From positions 1 through 51,017 of the forward strand of contig CATONV010000011.1 in the NCBI GenBank assembly GCA_951801655.1: a DNA stretch of 51,017 nt, read 5' to 3'. Each line of letters begins with the position of its first letter. Position 1 is the first letter of the stretch. Shown here piece by piece: positions 20,824 through 31,496 of this stretch. Both the position numbers and the translations under genes were made by a program. The DNA is from an uncultured Oscillospiraceae bacterium. Lineage in GTDB: Bacteria > Bacillota > Clostridia > Oscillospirales > Oscillospiraceae. The notes below the pieces were generated by a model. It was not told where the DNA came from, did no database searches, and saw nothing but the letters and a program-made list of their open reading frames with translations.

Positions 20824-22014
20824 TTAAATCAGTCCCAGGTCATATTTCCAGTCCAAAACCCGGCGTACGGCCTGGTCCACCCGACTTTGGGAGAGGGAGC
20901 CGTCCTCCAGGGCGGAGAGGACCTGGGGAATTTGGGTTTGAAAATCGGTGGTGACCACCATGTCGCATCCCGCTGTCAGGGCCAGCACGGCGGGGGATTG
21001 ACGCTTCTCCTTGGCAAATTGGGTAATGGCTTTCATGGCCAGGTCGTCGGTAATGGCCGGGCCATCAAAACCAATCTCCTCTCGGAGAATCCGGTATACA
21101 GCCGGGGAGAGGGAGGCAGGCCGATCTGGGTCCAGGCAGGTGACAATGTTGTGGGAGACCAGCACGGCGGAGGTGCCGTTGCTGGTCTCAATTCCCGCCT
21201 GAAAGGGGAGGAAATCCTCCTCCTGGAAGGTCTCCAGAGAGCGTTCATCCACTGCCATGCCCTCGTGGGTGTCGGCGTTGTCGCCGTAGCCGGGAAAGTG
21301 CTTCAATACGCTGCCCATGCGGTCCGCCTCCATCTGAGCCACCACAGCGGCAATGTATTCGCAGGTCTCCTCCGCGCCCAGGCCCAGGGTGCGGTCGTAG
21401 ATAAAATCGCCGGGGTTGGTGGACAGGTCGGCCACCGGGGCGAAATTGACGTTGATGCCTAGGGAGGAGAGCAGTTCATCCTTCTCTCGGCAGTCAGCCA
21501 AGACGGCCTCCAGCCCGCCCTGCTTGTACAGCTTCTGAGGGGAGGAAAACCGCTTCTCCCTCAGCTGGGGATTGGAGCTTACCCGAACCACGGTACCCCC
21601 CTCCTCGTCCACGCCGATAAGCATGGGGAGGTGGTTGGCCGCCTGGTAGACGGAAATCTGATCCTGCACCTCCTGGGCGGTCTTGTCCTTGAAGTCCCGG
21701 GCAAAGAGGAGGTAACCCCCCAGGAGATATTCCGCCGCGATCTCGCCTCCATAGTCGTTTCCGGGGCATCGGGCAAAAAAGAGCTGGCCCACTTTCTCCT
21801 CTATTGTCATGGAGGCCAGCAGACTGTCGATGGTCTCCTGCCGGGGATCGGGTTCCGGTTCGGGATCAGGAAACTCCACGGGTGCGAACACCTCCTGCCC
21901 CTCCGCCGGGGGAGGGGAGGGGGGTGGCGTGCTTACATCCTCCACGGGGGGAGACACAGAGGCGCAGCCCACCAGCAGGAGGGCCATCAGAGAAAGGGCA
22001 AGATATTGTTTCAT
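20824..22014 (-). CDS. Glycoside hydrolase family 3 lipoprotein (NagZ-like)
   Basis: A 396-residue exported lipoprotein: signal peptide MKQYLALSLMALLLVGCAS with lipobox LVGC (Cys17), a Pro/Glu-rich linker (20-58), then a GH3 beta-N-acetylhexosaminidase domain. GH3 motifs: MLIGVDEEGGTVVR, KHFPGYGDNADTHEG (Asp-His general acid pair; Gly-Tyr replaces the usual Gly-His), and AITDDLAMKAI with the nucleophile Asp. It probably trims N-acetylglucosamine-containing muropeptides or glycans at the outer face of the membrane. Gram-positive homologues are often secreted in this way. Start ATG 22014. Converges with the AEC gene. Confidence 0.88.
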   Translation of the reverse strand: MKQYLALSLMALLLVGCASVSPPVEDVSTPPPSPPPAEGQEVFAPVEFPDPEPEPDPRQETIDSLLASMTIEEKVGQLFFARCPGNDYGGEIAAEYLLGGYLLFARDFKDKTAQEVQDQISVYQAANHLPMLIGVDEEGGTVVRVSSNPQLREKRFSSPQKLYKQGGLEAVLADCREKDELLSSLGINVNFAPVADLSTNPGDFIYDRTLGLGAEETCEYIAAVVAQMEADRMGSVLKHFPGYGDNADTHEGMAVDERSLETFQEEDFLPFQAGIETSNGTSAVLVSHNIVTCLDPDRPASLSPAVYRILREEIGFDGPAITDDLAMKAITQFAKEKRQSPAVLALTAGCDMVVTTDFQTQIPQVLSALEDGSLSQSRVDQAVRRVLDWKYDLGLI

Positions 22015-22026
22015 GGTGTTCTCCTT

Positions 22027-22056
22027 AAAAACCGCCCCGCCTTCTTCAGGCGGGGC
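22027..22056 (-). terminator. Terminator of aspS
   Basis: On the minus strand GCCCCGCC-TGAAGAA-GGCGGGGC is followed by GGTTTTT, 8 bases after the aspS stop: a good intrinsic terminator. Confidence 0.9.
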
Positions 22057-22064
22057 AGTCCGGC

Positions 22065-23855
22065 TTATTCTTCTTCCATCTTGGTGATGGCAATGTTCAG
22101 CTCGTCTAGCTGCTTCTGCTCCACGGTGGAGGGCGCGCCCATCATCAGATCCTGAGCATTCTTGTTCATGGGGAAGGGGATCACTTCCCGAATGGACTCC
22201 TCCCCGGACAGGAGCATGACCATCCGGTCCACCCCGGGGGCGATGCCCGCGTGGGGAGGCGCGCCATAGGTGAAGGCGTTGTACATGGCGGGGAATTTTT
22301 TCTGTACGTCCTCCTCCGTCAGACGGACCAGCTTAAAGGCTTCCACCATGATTTCCGGGTCGTGGTTGCGCACCGCGCCGGAGGACAGCTCCACCCCGTT
22401 GCACACCAGGTCGTACTGGAACGCGGTGATGGACAGGGGGTCCACCTCACCCTTGATGGCCTTTTCGATGATCTCCAGGCCGCCGTTGGGCATGGAGAAG
22501 GGGTTGTGGCAGAATTCCAGCTCGCCGGACTCCTCCCCAATCTCATACATGGGGAAGTCCACGATCCAGCAGAACTCATACCTCTCCTTGTCCATATGCA
22601 CGGGGCAGAAAGCCCCCAGCTTGTTGCGCAGCACGCCGGCGGTTTTCTGGGCGGCCAGCAGGGCGCCGGCGGTGAGGCCTACGAAGCAGCCCTTCTCCAA
22701 ACGGAGGGCTTCCACCACCTGGTCCTTGATAGGCTGAACAAACTTGGCGATACCGCCCACAATCTCCCCGTTCTCGTCGTAGCGGAACCAGTAGGCTTTG
22801 CTGCCCGACTGGACCTCCACCTCGTTGCACAGCTCATCGATCTGCTTTCGGGTTCCGGAGAAGTCGGACACAACGATGGCTTTCACGGTCTGATTTTCAA
22901 AGGGCGGGAAGCCGCAGCCGGCCAGCAGAGAGGTGGCGTCGGTCACGGTCAGGTCGATGCGCAGGTCGGGCTTGTCGGAGCCGTATTTTTCCATGGCTTC
23001 CAGGTAGGGGATGCGGACAAAGGGCGCCTTTGAGGCAATGTCGTACTTGCCGTACTTGGCAAAAATGGGGGGAAGAACATCTTCCAGAACGGCGAAGACA
23101 TCCTCCTGATTGGCAAAGGCCATCTCCATGTCCAGCTGGTAGAATTCGCCGGGGGAGCGGTCGCCTCGGGCGTCCTCGTCCCGGAAGCAGGGGGCGATCT
23201 GGAAGTACTTGTCAAAGCCGGAGGCCATCAGCAGCTGCTTGAACTGCTGGGGGGCCTGGGGCAGGGCGTAGAACTTGCCGGGGTGCTTGCGGGAGGGCAC
23301 CAGGTAGTCCCGGGCCCCCTCGGGGGAGGAGGCGGTGAGAATGGGGGTGGTAATCTCCAAAAAGCCGTGGTCGGTCATGGCGGAGCGCAGGGCGGACACC
23401 ACTTGGCAGCGCAGGACGATGTTCTGCTTGACCTCGGGGTTGCGCAGGTCCAGATAGCGGTATTTCAGCCGGGCGGACTCGTCCGCTTCCCGGCTGCGGT
23501 TGATAGGGAAGGGCAGCTCATTGTGCCGGCAGCGGCCCAGCACCTCAATTTTGGCGGGGACCACCTCAATGTCGCCGGTGGGCAGCTTGGGGTTCTTGCT
23601 GTCCCTCTCCCGGACGGTGCCGGTGACTGAAATCACCGTCTCCTTGTTCAGCTCCTTGACGGTTTGGATGGTATCCTCCGTCTCCAGCACGACCTGGGTG
23701 GTGCCATAGAAATCCCGCAGGACCAGGAAGGCCAGGCTTTGACTGACCTCCCGCAGGTTTTCCATCCAGCCCGCCAGGGTCACTTCCTGGCCTGCCTGCT
23801 CCATGCGCAGCTCGCCGCAGGTGTGGGTGCGGTAAAAGGTGGTTGTGTCACCCAT
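22065..23855 (-). CDS. aspS: Aspartyl-tRNA synthetase
   Basis: Class II synthetase of the long bacterial type, 596 residues. N-terminal OB-fold anticodon-binding domain (about 1-110, GWMENLREVSQSLAFLVLRDF), catalytic core with motif 2 FRDEDARGDRSPGEFYQLDMEM (about 218-240), the bacterial GAD insertion domain (about 290-420) and motif 3 GIAPGVDRMVMLL near 535-550. Whether it discriminates Asp from Asn tRNA is not decidable here. Start ATG 23855. No T-box leader fits upstream, since only 36 bases separate it from the next gene. Confidence 0.96.
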   Translation of the reverse strand: MGDTTTFYRTHTCGELRMEQAGQEVTLAGWMENLREVSQSLAFLVLRDFYGTTQVVLETEDTIQTVKELNKETVISVTGTVRERDSKNPKLPTGDIEVVPAKIEVLGRCRHNELPFPINRSREADESARLKYRYLDLRNPEVKQNIVLRCQVVSALRSAMTDHGFLEITTPILTASSPEGARDYLVPSRKHPGKFYALPQAPQQFKQLLMASGFDKYFQIAPCFRDEDARGDRSPGEFYQLDMEMAFANQEDVFAVLEDVLPPIFAKYGKYDIASKAPFVRIPYLEAMEKYGSDKPDLRIDLTVTDATSLLAGCGFPPFENQTVKAIVVSDFSGTRKQIDELCNEVEVQSGSKAYWFRYDENGEIVGGIAKFVQPIKDQVVEALRLEKGCFVGLTAGALLAAQKTAGVLRNKLGAFCPVHMDKERYEFCWIVDFPMYEIGEESGELEFCHNPFSMPNGGLEIIEKAIKGEVDPLSITAFQYDLVCNGVELSSGAVRNHDPEIMVEAFKLVRLTEEDVQKKFPAMYNAFTYGAPPHAGIAPGVDRMVMLLSGEESIREVIPFPMNKNAQDLMMGAPSTVEQKQLDELNIAITKMEEE

Positions 23856-23891
23856 AAGATCAACTCCTATTTGTATTATTATTTTTGAATA

Positions 23892-24353
23892 TTACTGATC
23901 GCATATGGATTTCAGCGTTTCTTGAAGCTTGTCCGGGTTGGAGGGGGCGTAGCCCTGCCACTGGTTCTCCTCCTTCCCGGAGACCCACAGATGCTTGCCG
24001 TCCCAATAGGCGATATAAAAGGAGGAACAGCCGCTGACCTCACGGACTGCAATCCCGTTCGTGCCGGGTCTCTGGAACGGGAGAATCCGGGTGTACCTCT
24101 GCCCACGCAGGGCGTTTAATGCAGCCCGCCCCGGTGCGGCCTGCTCCGCTGTAACGGGGAAGTCGCTCATACCGGGATAATCGCCCTCGTGGAGAATGCC
24201 GATGGTATGGACCGCTATTTCCGGTATCCCACAGCCGGAGTTCTTAATTTGGTCGTAGGTAAGCTCCTCCGTCAAATAAGCCGCAGTCAGACCAAGGCCG
24301 AAGGCGGTCAAAAGGACAAGGAGGGTGCAAAGGGGCCAGAGCAGCTTTTTCAT
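23892..24353 (-). CDS. Small secreted or membrane-anchored protein, unknown
   Basis: A 153-residue protein with an N-terminal hydrophobic signal or anchor (MKKLLWPLCTLLVLLTAFGLGLTAAYL, about 3-27) and a soluble outer domain of about 125 residues with three Cys (Cys41, Cys108, Cys151), possibly disulfide-forming. I do not recognise the family. The ATG at 24353 overlaps the hisS stop (ATGA) with AAAGGAG upstream, so it is translated with hisS. It lies between two tRNA synthetase genes, but nothing in its sequence links it to translation. Confidence 0.65.
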   Translation of the reverse strand: MKKLLWPLCTLLVLLTAFGLGLTAAYLTEELTYDQIKNSGCGIPEIAVHTIGILHEGDYPGMSDFPVTAEQAAPGRAALNALRGQRYTRILPFQRPGTNGIAVREVSGCSSFYIAYWDGKHLWVSGKEENQWQGYAPSNPDKLQETLKSICDQ

Positions 24354-25720
24354 AGAGCTCCTTTGTCCAAAATGGGAGTTTCGCCGCTCTTGGCGGTAAT
24401 GGCGGCAACGATTTTGCCCACAGCCTCGCCGGTGGGAATCAGCTCCTGCTCGCCGGAGCGCATATCCTTCAAGGACACCTTGTCCTGTTTAATCTCGTCG
24501 TCCCCCAGGAAGACCACATAGGGGACCCCCAGCTTATCGGCGTAATTCATCTTCTGCTTGAACTTCTTCTGCTCGCCGTAGATCTGGGTGCGGACCTGGC
24601 AGCCCCGCAGCTGGGTGGCCAGGGCGATGGCGGGGCCCATGTCCCCGGTCATGGGGAGGATGAGGACGTCGGCGGGGGCGGTGTTCAGGGCGTCGTTCAG
24701 ATAGCCCTGATCCTCCAGAACGAAGAACAGCCGTGTCAGACCGATGGAAATTCCAACGCCGGGGAGTTGTTTATCGGTGTAATATTCCGCTAAGTTATCA
24801 TACCGGCCTCCGGAACAGATGGAACCGATCTCCGGGTGGTCCAGCATGGTGGTCTCGTAGACGGTGCCGGTGTAGTAGTCCAGCCCCCGGGCGATGGTCA
24901 GGTCCAGCACAAAGTGGGTTTCAGGTACGCCGAAGGCGGCCAGATTTTGGGCCACTGCCGTCAACTCGTCCAGGCCCTCGTCGAACATGGGGTTTCGGCC
25001 TCGGTAGGCATCCAGGGCAGCCAGAACCTGGGCGTTGTTCCCCCGGATGGCGATGAATTTCAGAATCTCGGCAGCCTGTTCGTCGTTAAGGCCGATGTCG
25101 GGAGAGGTGAGAAGGTCCCGGACAGATTTTTCACCGATTTTCTCCAACTTGTCCACCGTGCGCATAATAGACCCGGCCTGAGGGGTCAGGCCCAGCATGG
25201 CATAGAAGCCGTTTAAAATTTTCCGGTTGTTGACCCGGATCTGGAACCGCTTCAGCCCCAGGGAGGTGAAGGTTTGGTAGATGACGGCGGGAATCTCGGC
25301 ATCGTTGAAGATGTCCAGCTTGCCGTCGCCAATGATGTCAATGTCCGCCTGATAGAACTCCCGGAACCGGCCCCGCTGGGCCCGCTCGCCCCGATAGACC
25401 TTGCCGATCTGGAAACGGCGGAAGGGGAAGGCCAGCTTGGCGTAATTCAGGGCCACGTACTTGGCCAGAGGGACTGTCAGGTCAAAGCGGAGGGACAGGT
25501 CGCTGTCCCCCTTGGTGAAGCGGTAGATTTGTTTTTCCGTCTCGCCGCCCCCCTTGGCCAGCAGAACCTCGCTGGCTTCAATCAAGGGGGTGTCCAGGGG
25601 GGTGAAGGCATACCGGGAGAAGGACTCCCGGATGATGGCCGCCATGCGGTCAAAATGGATCTGCCGGGCAGGAAGGAGCTCCATAAAGCCGGACAGGGTG
25701 CGGGGTTGTACCTTAGCCAT
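24350..25720 (-). CDS. hisS: Histidyl-tRNA synthetase
   Basis: Class II synthetase, 456 residues. Contains motif 1 region (MAAIIRESFSRYAFTPLDTPLIEASEVLLAKGGGETEKQ), motif 2 FRRFQIGKVYRGERAQRGRFREFYQADID, the histidine-specific motif ARGLDYYTGTVYE, motif 3 (GGRYDNLAEYY with GVGISIGLTRLF) and a C-terminal anticodon-binding domain from about 345. A LSLRFDLTVPLAKYVA block is typical. It could be confused with HisZ, but the intact RGLDYYTG motif and the C-terminal domain favour HisS. Start ATG 25720 follows AAAGGA. Confidence 0.94.
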   Translation of the reverse strand: MAKVQPRTLSGFMELLPARQIHFDRMAAIIRESFSRYAFTPLDTPLIEASEVLLAKGGGETEKQIYRFTKGDSDLSLRFDLTVPLAKYVALNYAKLAFPFRRFQIGKVYRGERAQRGRFREFYQADIDIIGDGKLDIFNDAEIPAVIYQTFTSLGLKRFQIRVNNRKILNGFYAMLGLTPQAGSIMRTVDKLEKIGEKSVRDLLTSPDIGLNDEQAAEILKFIAIRGNNAQVLAALDAYRGRNPMFDEGLDELTAVAQNLAAFGVPETHFVLDLTIARGLDYYTGTVYETTMLDHPEIGSICSGGRYDNLAEYYTDKQLPGVGISIGLTRLFFVLEDQGYLNDALNTAPADVLILPMTGDMGPAIALATQLRGCQVRTQIYGEQKKFKQKMNYADKLGVPYVVFLGDDEIKQDKVSLKDMRSGEQELIPTGEAVGKIVAAITAKSGETPILDKGAL

Positions 25721-25794
25721 AACTCAAAATCCTTTCTTTTCAAATACACACATAGTTGTTCTTTTTCTTTTGTGAAAAAAGAAAAGAATCAAAA

Positions 25795-25840
25795 GAAAAA
25801 AGGAACAAACGCTCCCATCCCCAGAATCGGACGGGAGCGC
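25795..25840 (-). terminator. Terminator of the mgsA-like gene
   Basis: Minus-strand hairpin CGCTCCC...GGGAGCG (with extra pairs CGTCC/GGAT) followed by TTTGTTCCTTTTTTC, about 23 bases after the mgsA-like stop and upstream of hisS. Strong terminator shape; the gap to hisS is too short for a T-box. Confidence 0.85.
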
Positions 25841-25862
25841 GTACATGCGGCGGGGGCCCCGG

Positions 25863-26279
25863 TTACAGGGCGAAGGGCACCCGGTTGGGGTTCATAACCT
25901 CGCGCCAGCCCAGATCACCCCGAGACAGGCCGTGGATCAGCAGCTCGGCGGTGGCCACATTGGTGGCCACAGGGACAGAGTGCTGGTCGCACAGGCGGGT
26001 GATGTACAGCACATCTTTGTCCATTTCGTTGTCCTGGGGGGAGTTGAAAAAGAAGACCATGTCGATCTCGTTGTAGATGATGCGCTGGCCAATTTGCTCA
26101 ATCCCGCCGTGTTCATGGGACAAAAAAAGCTGGACAGGCAGGCCGGTGGCCTCCGCAACCATACGTCCGGTGGCGTTGGTGCCGCAGACGGAGTGCTTGG
26201 ACAGGACGCCGCAGTAGGCGGTACAGAATTGTACCATCAGTTCCTGCTTTTTTGTATGGCTCATAATGGCGATGTTCAT
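25863..26279 (-). CDS. Methylglyoxal synthase-like protein lacking the catalytic Asp
   Basis: A 138-residue protein colinear with methylglyoxal synthase (MgsA), which turns dihydroxyacetone phosphate into methylglyoxal. It starts MNIAIMSHTKKQELMVQF and has IPVATN-type motif VPVATNVATAELL (about 102-114). The normal active-site signature SGP(M/L)GGDQQIG reads SHEHGGIEQIG, so the catalytic Asp (Asp71 in E. coli) is Ile60, followed by Glu. The GTTG phosphate loop is GTNATG, and the His before the second conserved Asp (Asp89 here) is Met86. MgsA activity is therefore doubtful; it may bind a ligand or regulate. Start ATG 26279 has AGGAGG upstream. It lies 42 bases after minD, a pairing known from clostridial mreBCD-minCDE-rodA-mgsA clusters. 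Confidence 0.85.
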   Translation of the reverse strand: MNIAIMSHTKKQELMVQFCTAYCGVLSKHSVCGTNATGRMVAEATGLPVQLFLSHEHGGIEQIGQRIIYNEIDMVFFFNSPQDNEMDKDVLYITRLCDQHSVPVATNVATAELLIHGLSRGDLGWREVMNPNRVPFAL

Positions 26280-26320
26280 GGCAGCAATACCTCCTTGATT
26301 CCTTGTAATGGGCGGATAGG

Positions 26321-27055
26321 CTAGCGAATGCGCATAATGGGTACCCGCCGTCCCTCCAGCCGCTGGGCGATGTTCCAGCAGGCCAGGGCGGCCCCCCGTC
26401 TGCCGCGGACGGTGAGGGGCTGACCTAGGTTGGCGCACAGGATGACCTGTGGGTCTTCAGGAACCACACCGAGGAGGGGCAGACCGGCGGTATCCATGGC
26501 GTCGTCAATGGTGGTGCGCAGCTTGCGCAGCAGCCGGGTTTGGATACGGTTCATCACCAGATGGATCTGTTTCAGATGTTCCAGTTCAGCCACCGTCCGC
26601 TGGGCATCCCGCAGGGAAGAGGCGTCGTTGGTGGCGATTACCACGGCCCGGTCCACCTCTCGGGTGGCCAGGCGGAAGCCGACGCCCAGGCCGGCTGGGG
26701 AGTCGATTAGAATGTAGTCGTAGAGGGTGCGGGCTTCCTCCAGCAGGGTGCGGATTTTTTCTGAGGTAAGGCTGGCGGGGAGAGACATGGGAGACGTGAG
26801 AAGGGAGAGACCTTTCAGGTCCGGATGTTCCACGGCGGCCCGGGCCAGGGGACAGCGCCCCAGGGCCACGTCGGAGAAATCCATCAGCGCTCGGTCATTC
26901 AAGCCCAGGGAGATGTCCAGATTTCGCAGGCCGATGTCCATATCAATGCACAATACCCTGCGTCCCATTTCGGCCAGCGAGGCGGCCACGCCGCTGGTAA
27001 TGGAGGTCTTCCCGGTGCCGCCCTTACCGGATGTAATCGCGATCACGGTGCCCAT
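26321..27055 (-). CDS. minD: MinD-like ParA-family ATPase
   Basis: A 244-residue deviant-Walker ATPase. N-terminus MGTVIAITSGKGGTGKTSITSGVAASLAEMGRRVLCIDMDIGLRNLDISLGL matches MinD, which directs septum placement by binding MinC at the membrane. Walker A' is KGGTGKTS; Switch motifs YDYILIDSPAGLGVGF follow. The C-terminal end (AQRLEGRRVPIMRIR) is a short basic amphipathic stretch that could be a membrane-targeting helix, though less hydrophobic than usual. Neither minC nor minE is in the window, so its partner is unclear. A good promoter lies just upstream and the mgsA-like gene follows in the same transcript. Confidence 0.88.
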   Translation of the reverse strand: MGTVIAITSGKGGTGKTSITSGVAASLAEMGRRVLCIDMDIGLRNLDISLGLNDRALMDFSDVALGRCPLARAAVEHPDLKGLSLLTSPMSLPASLTSEKIRTLLEEARTLYDYILIDSPAGLGVGFRLATREVDRAVVIATNDASSLRDAQRTVAELEHLKQIHLVMNRIQTRLLRKLRTTIDDAMDTAGLPLLGVVPEDPQVILCANLGQPLTVRGRRGAALACWNIAQRLEGRRVPIMRIR

Positions 27056-27082
27056 GGAAGATACCTCCTAATTCACAGCTTT

Positions 27083-27110
27083 AATATATCATAAATCTGC
27101 CATACGTCAA
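27083..27110 (-). promoter_or_regulatory. minD promoter
   Basis: Minus-strand -35 TTGACG and -10 TATATT, 16 bases apart, in an AT-rich gap between rsmG and minD. Transcription would start near 27076 and cover minD and the mgsA-like gene. Confidence 0.78.
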
Positions 27111-27174
27111 CCATTTTTTTGCAAAATTTTAGAAAAAATTTACAAATCAGCCGATATTTTTCGATTTCTTCTGA

Positions 27175-27891
27175 TCAAAGGGGTTCTTTTTGTATTTTCG
27201 ACCATCGCCGGGGGTATTCCTTCAGAGTGGGAGCCATTTTTTGAATGATGACAAGACGGTGCGTAATATCGGTTCCGGGGATGAGGTAGTCCTGAATTTC
27301 TGATATTCTTCCGCCCAGCAGGCGGATGGCGTGATCTGCTTCAGCCAGCTCCTGGTCGCTGCCGGTGGACTTCATGGACAGGAAATATCCTCCCACCTTT
27401 ACGTAGGGCAGGCACAGCTCGCACAGGACCCGCAGGTCGGCTACGGCCCGGGCGGCGGCAAAGTCGAAGCTGTTCCGCCAGCCTTTTTCCAGGGCCTGTT
27501 CCTCCGCCCGGGCGTGGACGGCGGTCAGATTCGCCGCGCCGTCCAGCTGCTGACTGATCTGAATCAGCCAATCCAGGCGTTTGTTCAGGCTGTCCAGCAG
27601 GGTGACGTCCAGAGAGGGGACCAGAAGCTTCAATACCATTCCGGGAAAGCCCGCTCCAGTGCCCACGTCAATGAGGGTTTTGTTTTGGAAGTCGCAGAAC
27701 TTGAGAAGGGCGGCGCAGTCCAGCATATGCAGTCGGGCCACCTTTTCCGGTTCTCGGATGGCGGTAAGGTTCATCACCTGGTTTTTTTCCAGAAGAAGCC
27801 GTCCATATTGGGCCAGCTTTGCGGGGGCGTCCTGGGGGACCTGCCAGGTCAGTCCAAGGGCCTGCAGTCCCGCGGAGATGACTGCTTCCAT
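27175..27891 (-). CDS. rsmG: 16S rRNA (guanine527-N7)-methyltransferase
   Basis: SAM-dependent methyltransferase, 238 residues, that modifies G527 of 16S rRNA (known in E. coli numbering). The SAM-binding loop is DVGTGAGFPGMVLKL (about 76-90) and the family block FDFAAARAVADLRVLCELCLPYVKVGG (about 138-165) is clear. Start ATG 27891, 3 bases after the stop of the small membrane protein. In Firmicutes rsmG normally precedes noc-parA-parB; here it lies downstream of them. Confidence 0.94.
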   Translation of the reverse strand: MEAVISAGLQALGLTWQVPQDAPAKLAQYGRLLLEKNQVMNLTAIREPEKVARLHMLDCAALLKFCDFQNKTLIDVGTGAGFPGMVLKLLVPSLDVTLLDSLNKRLDWLIQISQQLDGAANLTAVHARAEEQALEKGWRNSFDFAAARAVADLRVLCELCLPYVKVGGYFLSMKSTGSDQELAEADHAIRLLGGRISEIQDYLIPGTDITHRLVIIQKMAPTLKEYPRRWSKIQKEPL

Positions 27892-27894
27892 TGC

Positions 27895-28266
27895 CTACCC
27901 CCCCAGAATGGAGATGCCGAATACGGTGACGTAATCGGAGAAGTTGGACAGCAGACCGACGATGCCGATGGGCAGGGTAATCAGGGCCAGCAGCCAGCAC
28001 AGGACGGCCAGGGCGATGGCGGGCCGTTTTCCCGGTTTGCCGGTGCTTTTCCAGGACACGAGGGCCACCACGCCCAATCCGATGAGACCGGGGACGGTGA
28101 GAAGAGGTCCCAGATTTCTCAGCCCGGTTGCGGTGAAAAAGAAGTAGGTGGTCAGAGACAGCAGGATGAGGGCATAGGCCAGGCCGATCCAGGCCAGGGT
28201 CCGCTTTACGGGGGAGGAGGGGGTGAAGCCGCTGTTCTTCGTCTCCTCGCGGGTACGTTTGTCCAT
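27895..28266 (-). CDS. Small membrane protein, unknown
   Basis: A 123-residue protein with a charged N-terminus (MDKRTREETKNSG), then three probable helices (about 25-47, 54-69 and 82-105). No family recognised. Its ATG follows the mscL stop without a gap (TAAATG), with AAGGAGAAAG upstream, so it is translationally coupled to mscL. rsmG starts 3 bases after its stop, making a tight mscL-orf-rsmG unit. Confidence 0.65.
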   Translation of the reverse strand: MDKRTREETKNSGFTPSSPVKRTLAWIGLAYALILLSLTTYFFFTATGLRNLGPLLTVPGLIGLGVVALVSWKSTGKPGKRPAIALAVLCWLLALITLPIGIVGLLSNFSDYVTVFGISILGG

Positions 28267-28653
28267 TTATGCTTTCTCCTTTAACAGGTCGCGGATCTCA
28301 GTAAGCAGCTTTTCCTCGGCGGAAGGCTGGGGAGCCGCCGGGGGCGCTTCCTCCTTCTTGTGGTGAAGTCTGTTCATGGTTTTTATGAGGCAGAACACCA
28401 CAAAGGCCATAATCAGGAAGTTAAGGATGGCCTGGATAAAGTTGCCGTAGGCGATGACCGCTCCGTTGACGGTAAAAGAGAGGGCCGCAAAGGAGATACT
28501 GCCGGTGAAGATGCCCAGGATGGGCATAATGATGTCGTTAATGAGAGAGGTGGTGATGGCGCTGAAGGCGCCGCCGATGATAACGCCTACAGCCATATCC
28601 ATCACGTTGCCCCGGGCAATGAACTGCTGGAATTCTTCCATGAATTTTTTCAT
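28267..28653 (-). CDS. mscL: Large-conductance mechanosensitive channel
   Basis: Pore protein that opens at high membrane tension and prevents lysis in osmotic downshock; 128 residues. N-terminal amphipathic helix [44 protein letters not shown] matches the channel signature (RGNVxDxAVGVIIG), with two membrane helices and a cytoplasmic tail. The tail includes HHKKEEAPP and a C-terminal helix [15 protein letters not shown]. Start ATG 28653 follows GGAGG; a longer frame lacks a site. Confidence 0.96.
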
Positions 28654-28675
28654 GTAAATCCTCCTGTTTTGTAAA

Positions 28676-29425
28676 TTACCGCGCCCGGTCCTCACTGCTG
28701 CGAATGCGGGTCTCCTTGATACCCATCTGCAGGTTGTACAGGGTCTTGTTCAGGGAGGTGATCTCCTGTTCGGTGAGCTGGGCGAAGAGGATGCCGTAGC
28801 GGAACTGCCCCGGGGCGTGTTCTACGCACCGGACGATTTGTCCCAGGAAGTTCAGTGGGGCGTACTCCTCCAGCTTCACCCGGATTCGGACCACCTCGTC
28901 CTCCATGTGAATATACTCGGATTGAACGCAGCATCCCCCGGTGCTGATGTTTACCAGCTGGCAGTTCTCCGGGTTTTTGAAGCGGTCATCATCCCTGCGG
29001 TACAGGGAGACAGGGGTGGTGAAGGGGAGACGGAAGGCCCCTCGATTTTCCACGTGACTCTCCATTTTCAGGTTTTTCAGCTTGAGGACGGTCCGGCTGG
29101 ACTCCTGTACGATGGCGCTGAGGCAGATGGGAATCAGCTTTTTGTCATAGCCGCTGAGACTCAGCGCCGCGCCGATGGGCGACACCTTGAAGGACAGCTC
29201 TCCTGGCAGCCGATTCAGGGTGAGAGTATCGTCGGTGAGTTCAGCGATCCGACCGGTCAGAAGGGGGTCCCCGTCTTTGGTCATGACCTCGATATGCATT
29301 CCGGTAAACAGCTCTCCGGTGGGGGCGCTCTCCGGCTGTACGGACGTGCGCTGAGTGGTCTGCTCTTCGTCAAGCAGCTCCTCGTCCTCCTCTTCATCTC
29401 GGGAGAAGAATGAAAAAATACCCAT
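28676..29425 (-). CDS. PilZ-domain protein, probable c-di-GMP receptor
   Basis: A 249-residue cytoplasmic protein with an acidic start ([13 protein letters not shown]), an N-terminal YcgR-like beta domain (about 40-125) and a C-terminal PilZ domain (about 127-235). The c-di-GMP binding motifs are both present: RGAFR (RxxxR) at about 128-132 and NISTGG (NxSxxG) at about 159-164. It therefore likely senses c-di-GMP and may affect motility or surface behaviour, as YcgR-type proteins do. No diguanylate cyclase is in the window. Located between mscL and serS. Confidence 0.82.
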
Positions 29426-29446
29426 TTGGAGTCTCCTTTCCCAGTG

Positions 29447-30748
29447 TTATTTCTTGGGGATCATCATGTTAAGGCCGCCCATATAGGGGCGGAGCACTTC
29501 GGGAATCAATACACTGCCGTCGGCCTGGAGGTTGTTTTCCAGAAAGGCAATGAGCATGCGGGGAGGCGCTACTACAGTGTTGTTCAGGGTGTGGGGCAGG
29601 TAGGTGCCCTTTTCGCCCTTCACCCGCATTTTCAACCTTCTCGCCTGGGCGTCCCCCAGGTTGGAGCAGGAGCAGACCTCAAAATACTTTTGCTGTCGGG
29701 GGGACCAGGCCTCGATGTCGCAGGACTTGACCTTCAAATCGGCCAGGTCGCCGGAGCAACACTCCAGCTGGCGCACAGGGATGTCCAGCGAGCGGAAGAG
29801 CTCCACGCTGAACCGCCACATCTTTTCGTACCAGGCCATGGAGTCCTCGGGTTTGCAGACAACGATCATCTCCTGCTTCTCAAACTGGTGGATGCGGTAG
29901 ACGCCTCTCTCCTCGATACCGTGGGAGCCCTTCTCCTTGCGGAAGCAGGGGGAGTAGGAGGTGAGGGTCTGGGGCAGGGAGCCTTCAGGGATAATCTGGT
30001 CGATGAATTTGCCGATCATGGAGTGCTCGCTGGTGCCGATGAGGTAGAGATCCTCCCCCTCGATTTTGTACATCATGGCCTCCATGTCGGTCTGACTCAT
30101 CACGCCCTCCACCACGTTGCCGTGGATCATAAAGGGAGGGATGCAGAAGGTAAAGCCCTTGCTGATCATAAAGTCCCGGGCGTAGGCCAGCACCGCCTCG
30201 TGGAGGCGGGCCACGTCGCCCAGCAGGTAGTAGAAGCCGTTGCCCGATACGCGACCGGCGGCGTCCATGTCCACCCCGTTGAAAGACTCCATGATTTCGG
30301 TATGATAGGGAATCTCAAAGCTGGGGACCTTGGCTTCGCCGAAGCGTTCCACCTCCACATTGGCGCTGTCGTCCGGGCCGATGGGGACGGAGGGGTCGAT
30401 GATATTGGGAATGACCAGCATGATCTTCCGGATTTTTTCCGCCAGCTCGGTCTCCTTCTGCTCCAGCTCAGCCAGGCGGTCGGCGTTGGCCTTGACCTTG
30501 GCCTTGGCTTCCTCGGCCTCGGCCAGCTTGGAGGGGTCCTTCTTGGCCTGGCCCATGAGAATGCCTACCTGCTTGCTGAGGGTGTTCCGGGCGGCCCGGA
30601 GCTCGTTGGCCTCGGACATGGCGGAGCGGTTCTCGGCGTCCAGCTCCAGCACCTGGTCTACCAGGGGGAGTTTCTCCTCCTGGAACTTCTTTTTTATATT
30701 TTCCTTTACAGCGTCGGGATTCTCCCGGACGAAACGAATGTCAAGCAT
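29447..30748 (-). CDS. serS: Seryl-tRNA synthetase
   Basis: Class II synthetase, 433 residues. The N-terminal tRNA-binding coiled-coil arm (about 30-100, rich in Glu/Lys/Ala) precedes the catalytic core with EHSMIGKFIDQIIPEGSLPQTLTSYSPCFRKEKGSHGIEERGVYRIHQFEKQEM (motif 2) and the motif 3 end NTVVAPPRMLIAFLEN. I chose ATG 30748, which has AGGAGAGG upstream and begins MLDIRFVRENPD; the longer frame to 30796 runs through a parS palindrome. No T-box leader is evident. Confidence 0.95.
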   Translation of the reverse strand: MLDIRFVRENPDAVKENIKKKFQEEKLPLVDQVLELDAENRSAMSEANELRAARNTLSKQVGILMGQAKKDPSKLAEAEEAKAKVKANADRLAELEQKETELAEKIRKIMLVIPNIIDPSVPIGPDDSANVEVERFGEAKVPSFEIPYHTEIMESFNGVDMDAAGRVSGNGFYYLLGDVARLHEAVLAYARDFMISKGFTFCIPPFMIHGNVVEGVMSQTDMEAMMYKIEGEDLYLIGTSEHSMIGKFIDQIIPEGSLPQTLTSYSPCFRKEKGSHGIEERGVYRIHQFEKQEMIVVCKPEDSMAWYEKMWRFSVELFRSLDIPVRQLECCSGDLADLKVKSCDIEAWSPRQQKYFEVCSCSNLGDAQARRLKMRVKGEKGTYLPHTLNNTVVAPPRMLIAFLENNLQADGSVLIPEVLRPYMGGLNMMIPKK

Positions 30749-30779
30749 GCTGATCCTCTCCTTTAAATAGTAAAGTTGA

Positions 30780-30795
30780 TGTTTCACGTGAAACA
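30780..30795. promoter_or_regulatory. parS-like centromere site 2
   Basis: TGTTTCACGTGAAACA is a perfect 16-base palindrome, one base from the Bacillus consensus. It lies upstream of serS, 31 bases before its start codon, in a gap with the membrane coiled-coil gene. Site of ParB loading. Confidence 0.93.
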
Positions 30796-30839
30796 TTGGC
30801 TGGTATTGGGAAAGCCTTCTTCCTGGGAAAAGCTCGTTC

Positions 30840-31496
30840 CTATTTGATAACCTTGTTCCGGATCTCCATATACCGGTCGTAGGGGGAGAAGCGGTCGGTC
30901 CCGGTGGAGTTCTCCTTGGGGAGGTACTCCATCAGCGGGCCCGCTTCGGGGGTTGTGTCCGGACTCTCAATTTGAGAGATCAGGTTGCGGCACAGCGCAG
31001 TCCGCCCCCGGACGTAGGCGTCATTGATCTGCCAGAAGTAGTCCATGGCCTGGGTTGTCCATTCAAGGACATTCTCCGTGTGGGCGAGGGTATCGGTGAC
31101 GTCTCTCAGGTTGACCTCGAATTCATCTGCCGCCGCCTTCTGCTTGGTGAGCTCCTGCTCCAGTTCAGCAACCTTTGCCTGAAGAACGCTGTTTTCATTC
31201 ATCAGCCCCTGGAGGGTCTGGACGGCGGAGGCCGACTGTTTCAGGTCGTCGATCTGCTGTCGGCTTTGCCGTCTCTCCATCATAAAGGTGAACAGCAGGA
31301 GAACAAAGGCGGCCATAAAGAGAATGGCAATATACTGGAAGACAGAGTTTCGCCGTTTGCGTTGCTGGGCCCGGCGTCGCCTGGCGTCCTGGTCGGCAGG
31401 GGAGGAGGGACGGCGTTTTTTTTCACCGGTGTCGGGGAAGCGGTGCGCATCCTCAATAAAAGGTTCGCTGGTGTTCCTTCGGCGTCCCTCAGCCAT
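30840..31496 (-). CDS. Membrane protein with coiled coil, downstream of parB
   Basis: A 218-residue protein with a basic, disordered N-terminus (about 1-50, ending RRRRAQQRKRRN), one transmembrane helix (FQYIAILFMAAFVLLLFTFMM, about 52-72), then an outward coiled coil (about 75-130) and a soluble C-terminal part. The topology is single-pass with the basic end inside. Not recognised; similar layout to septal or envelope anchors such as FtsL/DivIC-like proteins, but no motif supports that. ATG 31496 overlaps the parB stop by 8 bases after GGAGG, so it is in the parA-parB operon. A link to chromosome segregation is only positional. Confidence 0.65.
   Translation of the reverse strand: MAEGRRRNTSEPFIEDAHRFPDTGEKKRRPSSPADQDARRRRAQQRKRRNSVFQYIAILFMAAFVLLLFTFMMERRQSRQQIDDLKQSASAVQTLQGLMNENSVLQAKVAELEQELTKQKAAADEFEVNLRDVTDTLAHTENVLEWTTQAMDYFWQINDAYVRGRTALCRNLISQIESPDTTPEAGPLMEYLPKENSTGTDRFSPYDRYMEIRNKVIK

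Follow-up and report, generated by a model that had tools for sequence, protein, structure and literature searches.

Two described systems lie closest to the gene considered here, the methylglyoxal synthase MgsA and the methylglyoxal synthase (MGS) domain of carbamoyl-phosphate synthetase, the latter being allosteric and not catalytic. For MgsA, extracts of the published account (PMC7843640) give Asp71 as the base which withdraws the proton, His19 as stabilising the O3 hydroxyl and His98 as accessory and not critical; the phosphate is held by Lys23, Ser65 and residues Thr45 to Gly49, and Gly66-Pro67, in the loop after Ser65, cover the substrate dihydroxyacetone phosphate (DHAP). In Bacillus subtilis, MgsA is regulated by Crh (PMC12291648, in extract) and a link to cell elongation, via methylglyoxal itself, has been claimed (PMC10714963, in extract). 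The present analysis concerns an MgsA-like gene of an uncultured Oscillospiraceae bacterium, located on the minus strand at 25863..26279 of a 51,017-nucleotide stretch of DNA (contig CATONV010000011.1, assembly GCA_951801655.1; hereafter the window), which encodes a protein with the MGS fold that lacks the catalytic Asp. It appears to belong to a set of conserved proteins, spread throughout the bacterial family, from which methylglyoxal synthase catalysis has probably been lost.

Active site of the MgsA-like protein

The gene was delimited as an open reading frame of 138 amino acids (ATG at 26279, stop codon ending at 25863), supported by profile matches and alignment; the MgsA proteins of Escherichia coli (K-12 record) and B. 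subtilis served as references, and E. coli numbers are given first. The motifs of the window protein are SHTKKQ, GTNATG, SHEHGGIEQ, NEMDKD and VPVATNVATAELL. Alignment to both references bears out a preliminary description of the window, in which the signature GGDQQ had been read as GGIEQ, the phosphate loop as altered to GTNATG and the His before the second Asp as Met: Asp71 corresponds to Ile60, Thr45-Gly46-Thr47-Thr48-Gly49 to T-N-A-T-G, His98 to Met86 and Asp101 to a retained Asp89. The placement of His98 depends on gaps and differs between alignments, and only the absence of a His is used here. Further replacements affect Asp20 (Thr9), Lys23 (Gln12) and Asp91 (Ser80), together with Gly66 (His55), Met68 (His57) and Gln72 (Glu61) in the loop. 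Within the phosphate-binding set, Lys23 has thus become Gln, Gly46 Asn and Thr47 Ala, with Thr45, Thr48, Gly49 and Ser65 kept; His19 and Gln73 are likewise retained. As Asp71 and part of the phosphate site are replaced, both are gone from the window protein.

The MGS fold, which had been described as kept throughout, is indeed present. The protein scores 101.3 bits against NF003559 (methylglyoxal synthase), above the cut-off of 84, and 100.7 bits against TIGR00160, missing the cut-off of 146.9 by 46 bits. Its residues are reason not to class it with the functional methylglyoxal synthases, though it descends from one.

Conservation among the closest relatives

Close relatives were collected by a genome scan with short query patterns, one of which was HEHGGIEQ; a search of this kind favours look-alikes of the query and recovers only close kin. 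The scan returned 50 further loci at 80 to 98% identity to the window protein, giving, with the window, an own clade of 51 loci and 47 distinct proteins. The record titles include Lawsonibacter, Pseudoflavonifractor, Flintibacter, Colidextribacter, Flavonifractor and uncultured Oscillospiraceae, with named isolates and one complete genome among them. Position 71 is Ile in 48 of the 51 loci, Val in three and Asp in none. A separate clade with Ile or Val at this position is supported, and the case of homologues with the Asp, among which the Ile would be an isolated change, was not encountered. An isolated mutation or a sequencing error is ruled out by the 50 further loci without Asp71. The remaining changes are almost as uniform: Lys23 is Gln in 49/51 loci, Thr47 is Ala in 50/51, and in all 51 Asp91 is Ser or Tyr, Gly66 and Met68 are both His and the gene has 414 coding bases. 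The median ratio of non-synonymous to synonymous substitution rates (dN/dS) was 0.074 over 1171 of the 1275 own-clade pairs (identical pairs, those with dS outside 0.05-1.5 and those that failed being dropped) and 0.055 over 48 pairs with the window, denoting strong purifying selection. Because the residue changes are common to nearly all of the 50 nearest loci and this selection is strong, they go beyond chance, in keeping with the earlier view that more than a single drift event was involved.

Four congeners, found by the MgsA profile in genomes 97 to 98% complete, have one profile match each and carry GGIEQ (three) or GGVEQ (one); three of these proteins also occur, unchanged, among the loci of the query-pattern scan. 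In the window's own genome the only MGS matches are the window copy and a carB-sized protein (1076-aa frame). Compensation by a second MgsA was considered and rejected, none being found in the own genome (89% complete) or in the four congeners searched. In two loci (L079 and L080) Asp20 and Lys23 are retained alongside GGIEQ, which suggests an order of change in which the base, Gln72 and Asp91 would have been altered before Asp20 and Lys23.

Distribution and residue retention across the family

A match to the MgsA profile was found in 237 of 250 family genomes, and in 157 of the 160 near-complete ones. Nine matches scored 195 to 205 bits and the rest at most 133, the nine being longer genes with canonical residues and the others relatives of the window gene. 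From the 237 genomes with a match, 136 loci were read, comprising the four congeners and 132 loci outside the window's genus (130 genomes, 99 genera); one gene is counted twice, as L018 and L185, and genome G069 yielded two different loci. The first 87 loci were the better-scoring among the matches listed, and 49, mostly lower-scoring, were added to correct this bias.

Asp71 was kept in only 11 of the 132 loci and was never accompanied by His98 (0/132); 90 of the 99 genera have no Asp71 at all. The rest of the pocket is largely intact, with His19 kept in 121 loci, Asp20 and Lys23 in 127 each, Thr45 in 130, Thr48 in 129 and Asp91 in 123. Retention of the phosphate-binding residues therefore holds across the family and much less so in the own clade, where Lys23 and Thr47 have gone. 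Gly70 (132/132) and Gln73 (131/132) flank position 71, at which 16 residue types occur in the 136 loci, between an almost invariant GG and QQ. Such free variation suggests that the site was freed from catalysis, and not that one new residue was selected. On the residues, the base appears to be released in the family at large and the phosphate pocket kept, the window's clade having later altered the pocket too. Of the selected change of function that the preliminary description proposed, the loss beyond drift stands; the loss of catalysis, however, proceeded in steps and spans the family instead of being new in one strain.

Short and long forms in the wider Clostridia

In the sampled genomes of the order and class, matches were present in 95/97 and 39/59, respectively. 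For 46 bacterial families a short-form copy was read, many of them represented by one or two genomes only: 22 have only Asp at position 71, 15 never have it and nine have both states. Trees were inferred by a quick method from a small number of columns; the first, of 244 rows and 122 columns, has 231 inner branches, 116 of which fall below 80. A second tree, of 293 rows and with columns 65-73 and 97-101 left out, gave 27 changes between Asp and non-Asp, which may be losses or regains, at least 20 of them at a Shimodaira-Hasegawa-like approximate likelihood ratio test (SH-aLRT) value of 80 or more and at least eight at 95.

Among the 257 genomes with loci read, 161 carry only a short copy without Asp71, 73 only a short copy with it, 16 combine a long canonical copy with a short copy lacking Asp71, two combine a long copy with a short copy that has Asp71, four have a long copy only, and one has both kinds of short copy. 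Since most genomes thus carry a short copy without Asp71 and nothing else, most losses of Asp71 are not accounted for by a second enzyme having taken over. All 12 residues checked are kept in each of the 22 long-form copies (nine from the family and 13 from the order and class), which are set apart, together with E. coli MgsA, by one branch (SH-aLRT 99) and have no minD in the 1.5 kb read on either side. Long canonical MgsA (L003-L011, L083-L090, L113-L116 and L128) is sporadic in Clostridia as a second form and lies away from minD, and was possibly acquired separately. Even more divergent MgsA-like copies occur in other families (L145, L146, L147, L149, L151 and L152), the first four of which lie beside minC-minD-minE and have lost one Gly of the GG motif.

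Gene neighbourhood and MinD

Adjacency to MinD was computed by tblastn; up to 1.5 kb per side was read at family, order and class loci, and 'no MinD' accordingly means none within 1.5 kb. A minD gene lies directly upstream in 51/51 own-clade and 106/136 family loci, the typical run in many loci of the order being mreC, mreD, pbp2, minD, the MgsA-like gene, hisS and aspS, whilst in several other Clostridia families minE and rodA, or minC-minD-minE, are directly upstream. The name of each neighbour cluster comes from a single representative: Pfam confirms PBP2, MreC, MinE, MinC, RodA/FtsW and the AspS of the window, the MreD representative has no Pfam match, and the names M23 and SpoIVFB are by-eye assignments.

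The gene had been described as kept with minD, which is the case throughout the own clade but is not obligatory. No MinD was found at 27 family loci with at least 1 kb of upstream sequence, and in the 15 of these genomes that were searched throughout no MinD match exceeded 97 bits; the MgsA-like gene is nevertheless kept in these 15, directly after pbp2 in ten, and Asp20 and Lys23 are each retained in 26 of the 27 loci. Conversely, among the 13 family genomes without an MgsA match the best MinD score is at most 80 bits in 11, 106 in one and 153 in one, and in G270 MinD is matched (167.7 bits) but MgsA is not; missing MinD/MgsA pairs may partly be assembly gaps. Relatives with and without MinD differ at many residues, but these differences probably reflect the phylogeny. 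MinE and the MinC C-domain were each above cut-off in 0/41 sampled family genomes, whereas the models do find three and six, respectively, of the 14 genomes used as controls, and also match MinE and MinC representatives of a different Clostridia family. The minD of the window and of sampled family genomes is kept with neither of its textbook partners, MinE and MinC, above cut-off.

In the window the minD-family ATPase gene (26321..27055, minus strand; TIGR01968 208.7 bits, below the curated cut-off of 212.9) is separated from the MgsA-like gene by 41 bases, within which a ribosome-binding site AAGGAGG was seen by eye (26290..26296, minus strand), its end 10 bases from the ATG. A promoter-like site, TTGACG-16-TATATT with TG, lies upstream of minD (27083..27110, minus strand; weak evidence), and a terminator-like hairpin with a T-rich tail lies just 3' of the MgsA-like gene (25809..25840, minus strand). 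The gap and these two sites suggest the operon with minD that had been put forward, but neither kind of site is more frequent here than in shuffled sequence (one promoter-like site against a mean of 0.9, two terminator-like sites against 1.8). Terminator-like sites 3' of the gene were found in 17/51 own-clade loci versus 13/255 shuffles, and such hairpins in 36/87 family genes versus 21/435 shuffles; the hairpin of the window, GCGCTCCCGTCC...GGATGGGAGCG, between the MgsA-like gene and hisS, was seen again in several relatives and could be either a terminator or a hisS leader. No Rfam match at the gathering threshold was found in 21000-31000. The next gene downstream is hisS (24350..25720, minus strand), the commonest right-hand neighbour among the loci read. 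Adjoining aspS is a gene for a glycoside hydrolase family 3 protein (20824-22014, minus strand; Pfam 183.7 bits), whose N terminus is lipoprotein-like by eye.

Proposed role and alternatives

With a probability of roughly 55%, we favour a family-wide, non-catalytic pseudoenzyme derived from short-form mgsA, the pocket of which was remodelled in the window's clade. This reading builds on the fold, the loss of catalytic residues, the family-wide spread, the purifying selection and the gene neighbourhood, all of them results of computation. The source of the gene would be the short-form mgsA found in Clostridia close to min and cell-shape genes; catalysis would have been lost in the family along with the base Asp71 and the His98 loop, and the protein retained in a folded, conserved state. 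The remaining pocket (His19, Asp20, Lys23, Thr45, Thr48 and Asp91) would most likely bind phosphate or a small phosphorylated metabolite, and the protein may signal its ligand state to a cell-wall elongation or division partner, or scaffold that partner; the allosteric MGS domain of carbamoyl-phosphate synthetase offers an analogy for such ligand reporting. In the window's clade a second remodelling (K23Q, D20T, T47A, D91S, Q72E and two new His at 66 and 68) may have left a site for another ligand, or a scaffold only, the two His and the Glu at 72 being compatible with another ligand, with a metal or with a new reaction. Several points weigh against this proposal: Asp71 is retained in 11 family loci, and two of the MgsA phosphate ligands, Lys23 and Thr47, are gone in the very clade of the window. 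Furthermore, the Asp20, Asp91 and His19 retained in the family could serve another chemistry, and the neighbourhood could be hitch-hiking, as hisS and aspS are the commonest genes to the right.

There is the possibility, which we regard as unlikely, that in a sub-lineage including the window the pocket performs another reaction; the different carbon-oxygen lyase of the preliminary description is a possible case. His55 and His57 lie on the loop which, in MgsA, covers C1/C2 of the substrate (DHAP; PMC7843640, in extract), and with Glu56 and Glu61 near in sequence they could form a new base or, with His8, a metal site. This HxH pair is found in 51/51 own-clade sequences, in 39/132 family loci from 23 of the 99 genera, and in 43/108 loci with MinD as opposed to 0/27 without, and the strong purifying selection would suit an enzyme. 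However, a new active site would not be expected to vary as do position 71 and the 93-101 loop, which are hypervariable across the family; most family loci keep the gene and lack HxH, and Asp20, Lys23 and Asp91 have been lost in the own clade. A little less probable again is a dedicated MinD partner that has replaced MinE and MinC. The absence of both from the 41 sampled genomes, the frequency of minD directly upstream (106/136 and 51/51) and the single MinD score above 110 bits among the 13 genomes without an MgsA match would all be expected of such a partner. The gene nevertheless stays in the 15 genomes without a MinD match above 97 bits and at 27 loci without MinD, there with Asp20 and Lys23 in 26 of 27; copies lacking Asp71 also sit beside minC-minD-minE (L145, L146, L147 and L149), and G270 has MinD without MgsA.

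A weak or altered methylglyoxal synthase, in which another residue does the work of Asp71, would account for the NF003559 match and for the retention of His19, Thr45, Thr48 and Ser65. Ile cannot act as the proton-withdrawing base (the role of Asp71 in the extracts of PMC7843640), Lys23, Asp20, Asp91 and His98 are changed too and the TIGR00160 cut-off is missed by a wide score difference (100.7 vs 146.9), all of which makes this explanation improbable. Least credible of all is a decaying relic or an assembly artefact: although many active-site residues are lost and the assembly of the window comprises 150 contigs and is 89% complete, the dN/dS of 0.074, the constant 414 coding bases, the named isolates and complete genome in the clade and the matches in 237/250 family genomes leave it hardly any room.

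Returning to the pseudoenzyme, a bolder version can be put forward only tentatively. MgsA near mre and min genes may have had an old, non-catalytic morphogenesis role across Clostridia, with catalysis shed repeatedly; the pseudoenzyme would link glycolytic phosphate status to wall elongation or division, and the window's clade would have a second, HEH-bearing pocket. In the one open-access library searched, no report was found of such a protein or linking methylglyoxal synthase with MinD, nor of an MgsA pseudoenzyme or of mgsA with mreC/rodA and minD. If the favoured reading is correct, most of the 237/250 genomes of a gut family in which a protein passes NF003559 would produce no methylglyoxal by means of it. 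Tallies of gut methylglyoxal producers that rely on mgsA could then be too high, and these bacteria would hold a widely conserved gene whose function has gone unrecognised. The recurrent disappearance of a single catalytic residue from this gene would also provide natural replicates for the study of MgsA roles beyond catalysis.

Comparison with known systems

The regulation of B. subtilis MgsA by Crh has no evident counterpart here: the own genome (89% complete) encodes two HPr-type proteins (L287 and L288), both with the active-site His by eye, and no Crh-type protein was seen by eye among them. In the MGS-like allosteric domain of CarB the fold is a C-terminal fusion, whereas the window protein is a stand-alone chain of 138 aa that is not fused to the C terminus of carbamoyl-phosphate synthetase, the carB-sized MGS protein of the own genome being separate. 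From MgsA proper (EC 4.2.3.3; NF003559 / TIGR00160; PDB 1b93, 6f2c and 1wo8) the window protein differs at Asp71 (Ile), Asp20, Lys23, Thr47, Asp91 and His98. There is also a likeness to the short-form mgsA of other Clostridia families (for example L117, L119, L120 and L122-L127), which, as in the window, has minD, minE or a rodA-type gene directly upstream and falls outside the long-form group on the tree. This is the probable ancestor type, and it keeps Asp71, His98 and the full phosphate loop, whereas the window protein does not.
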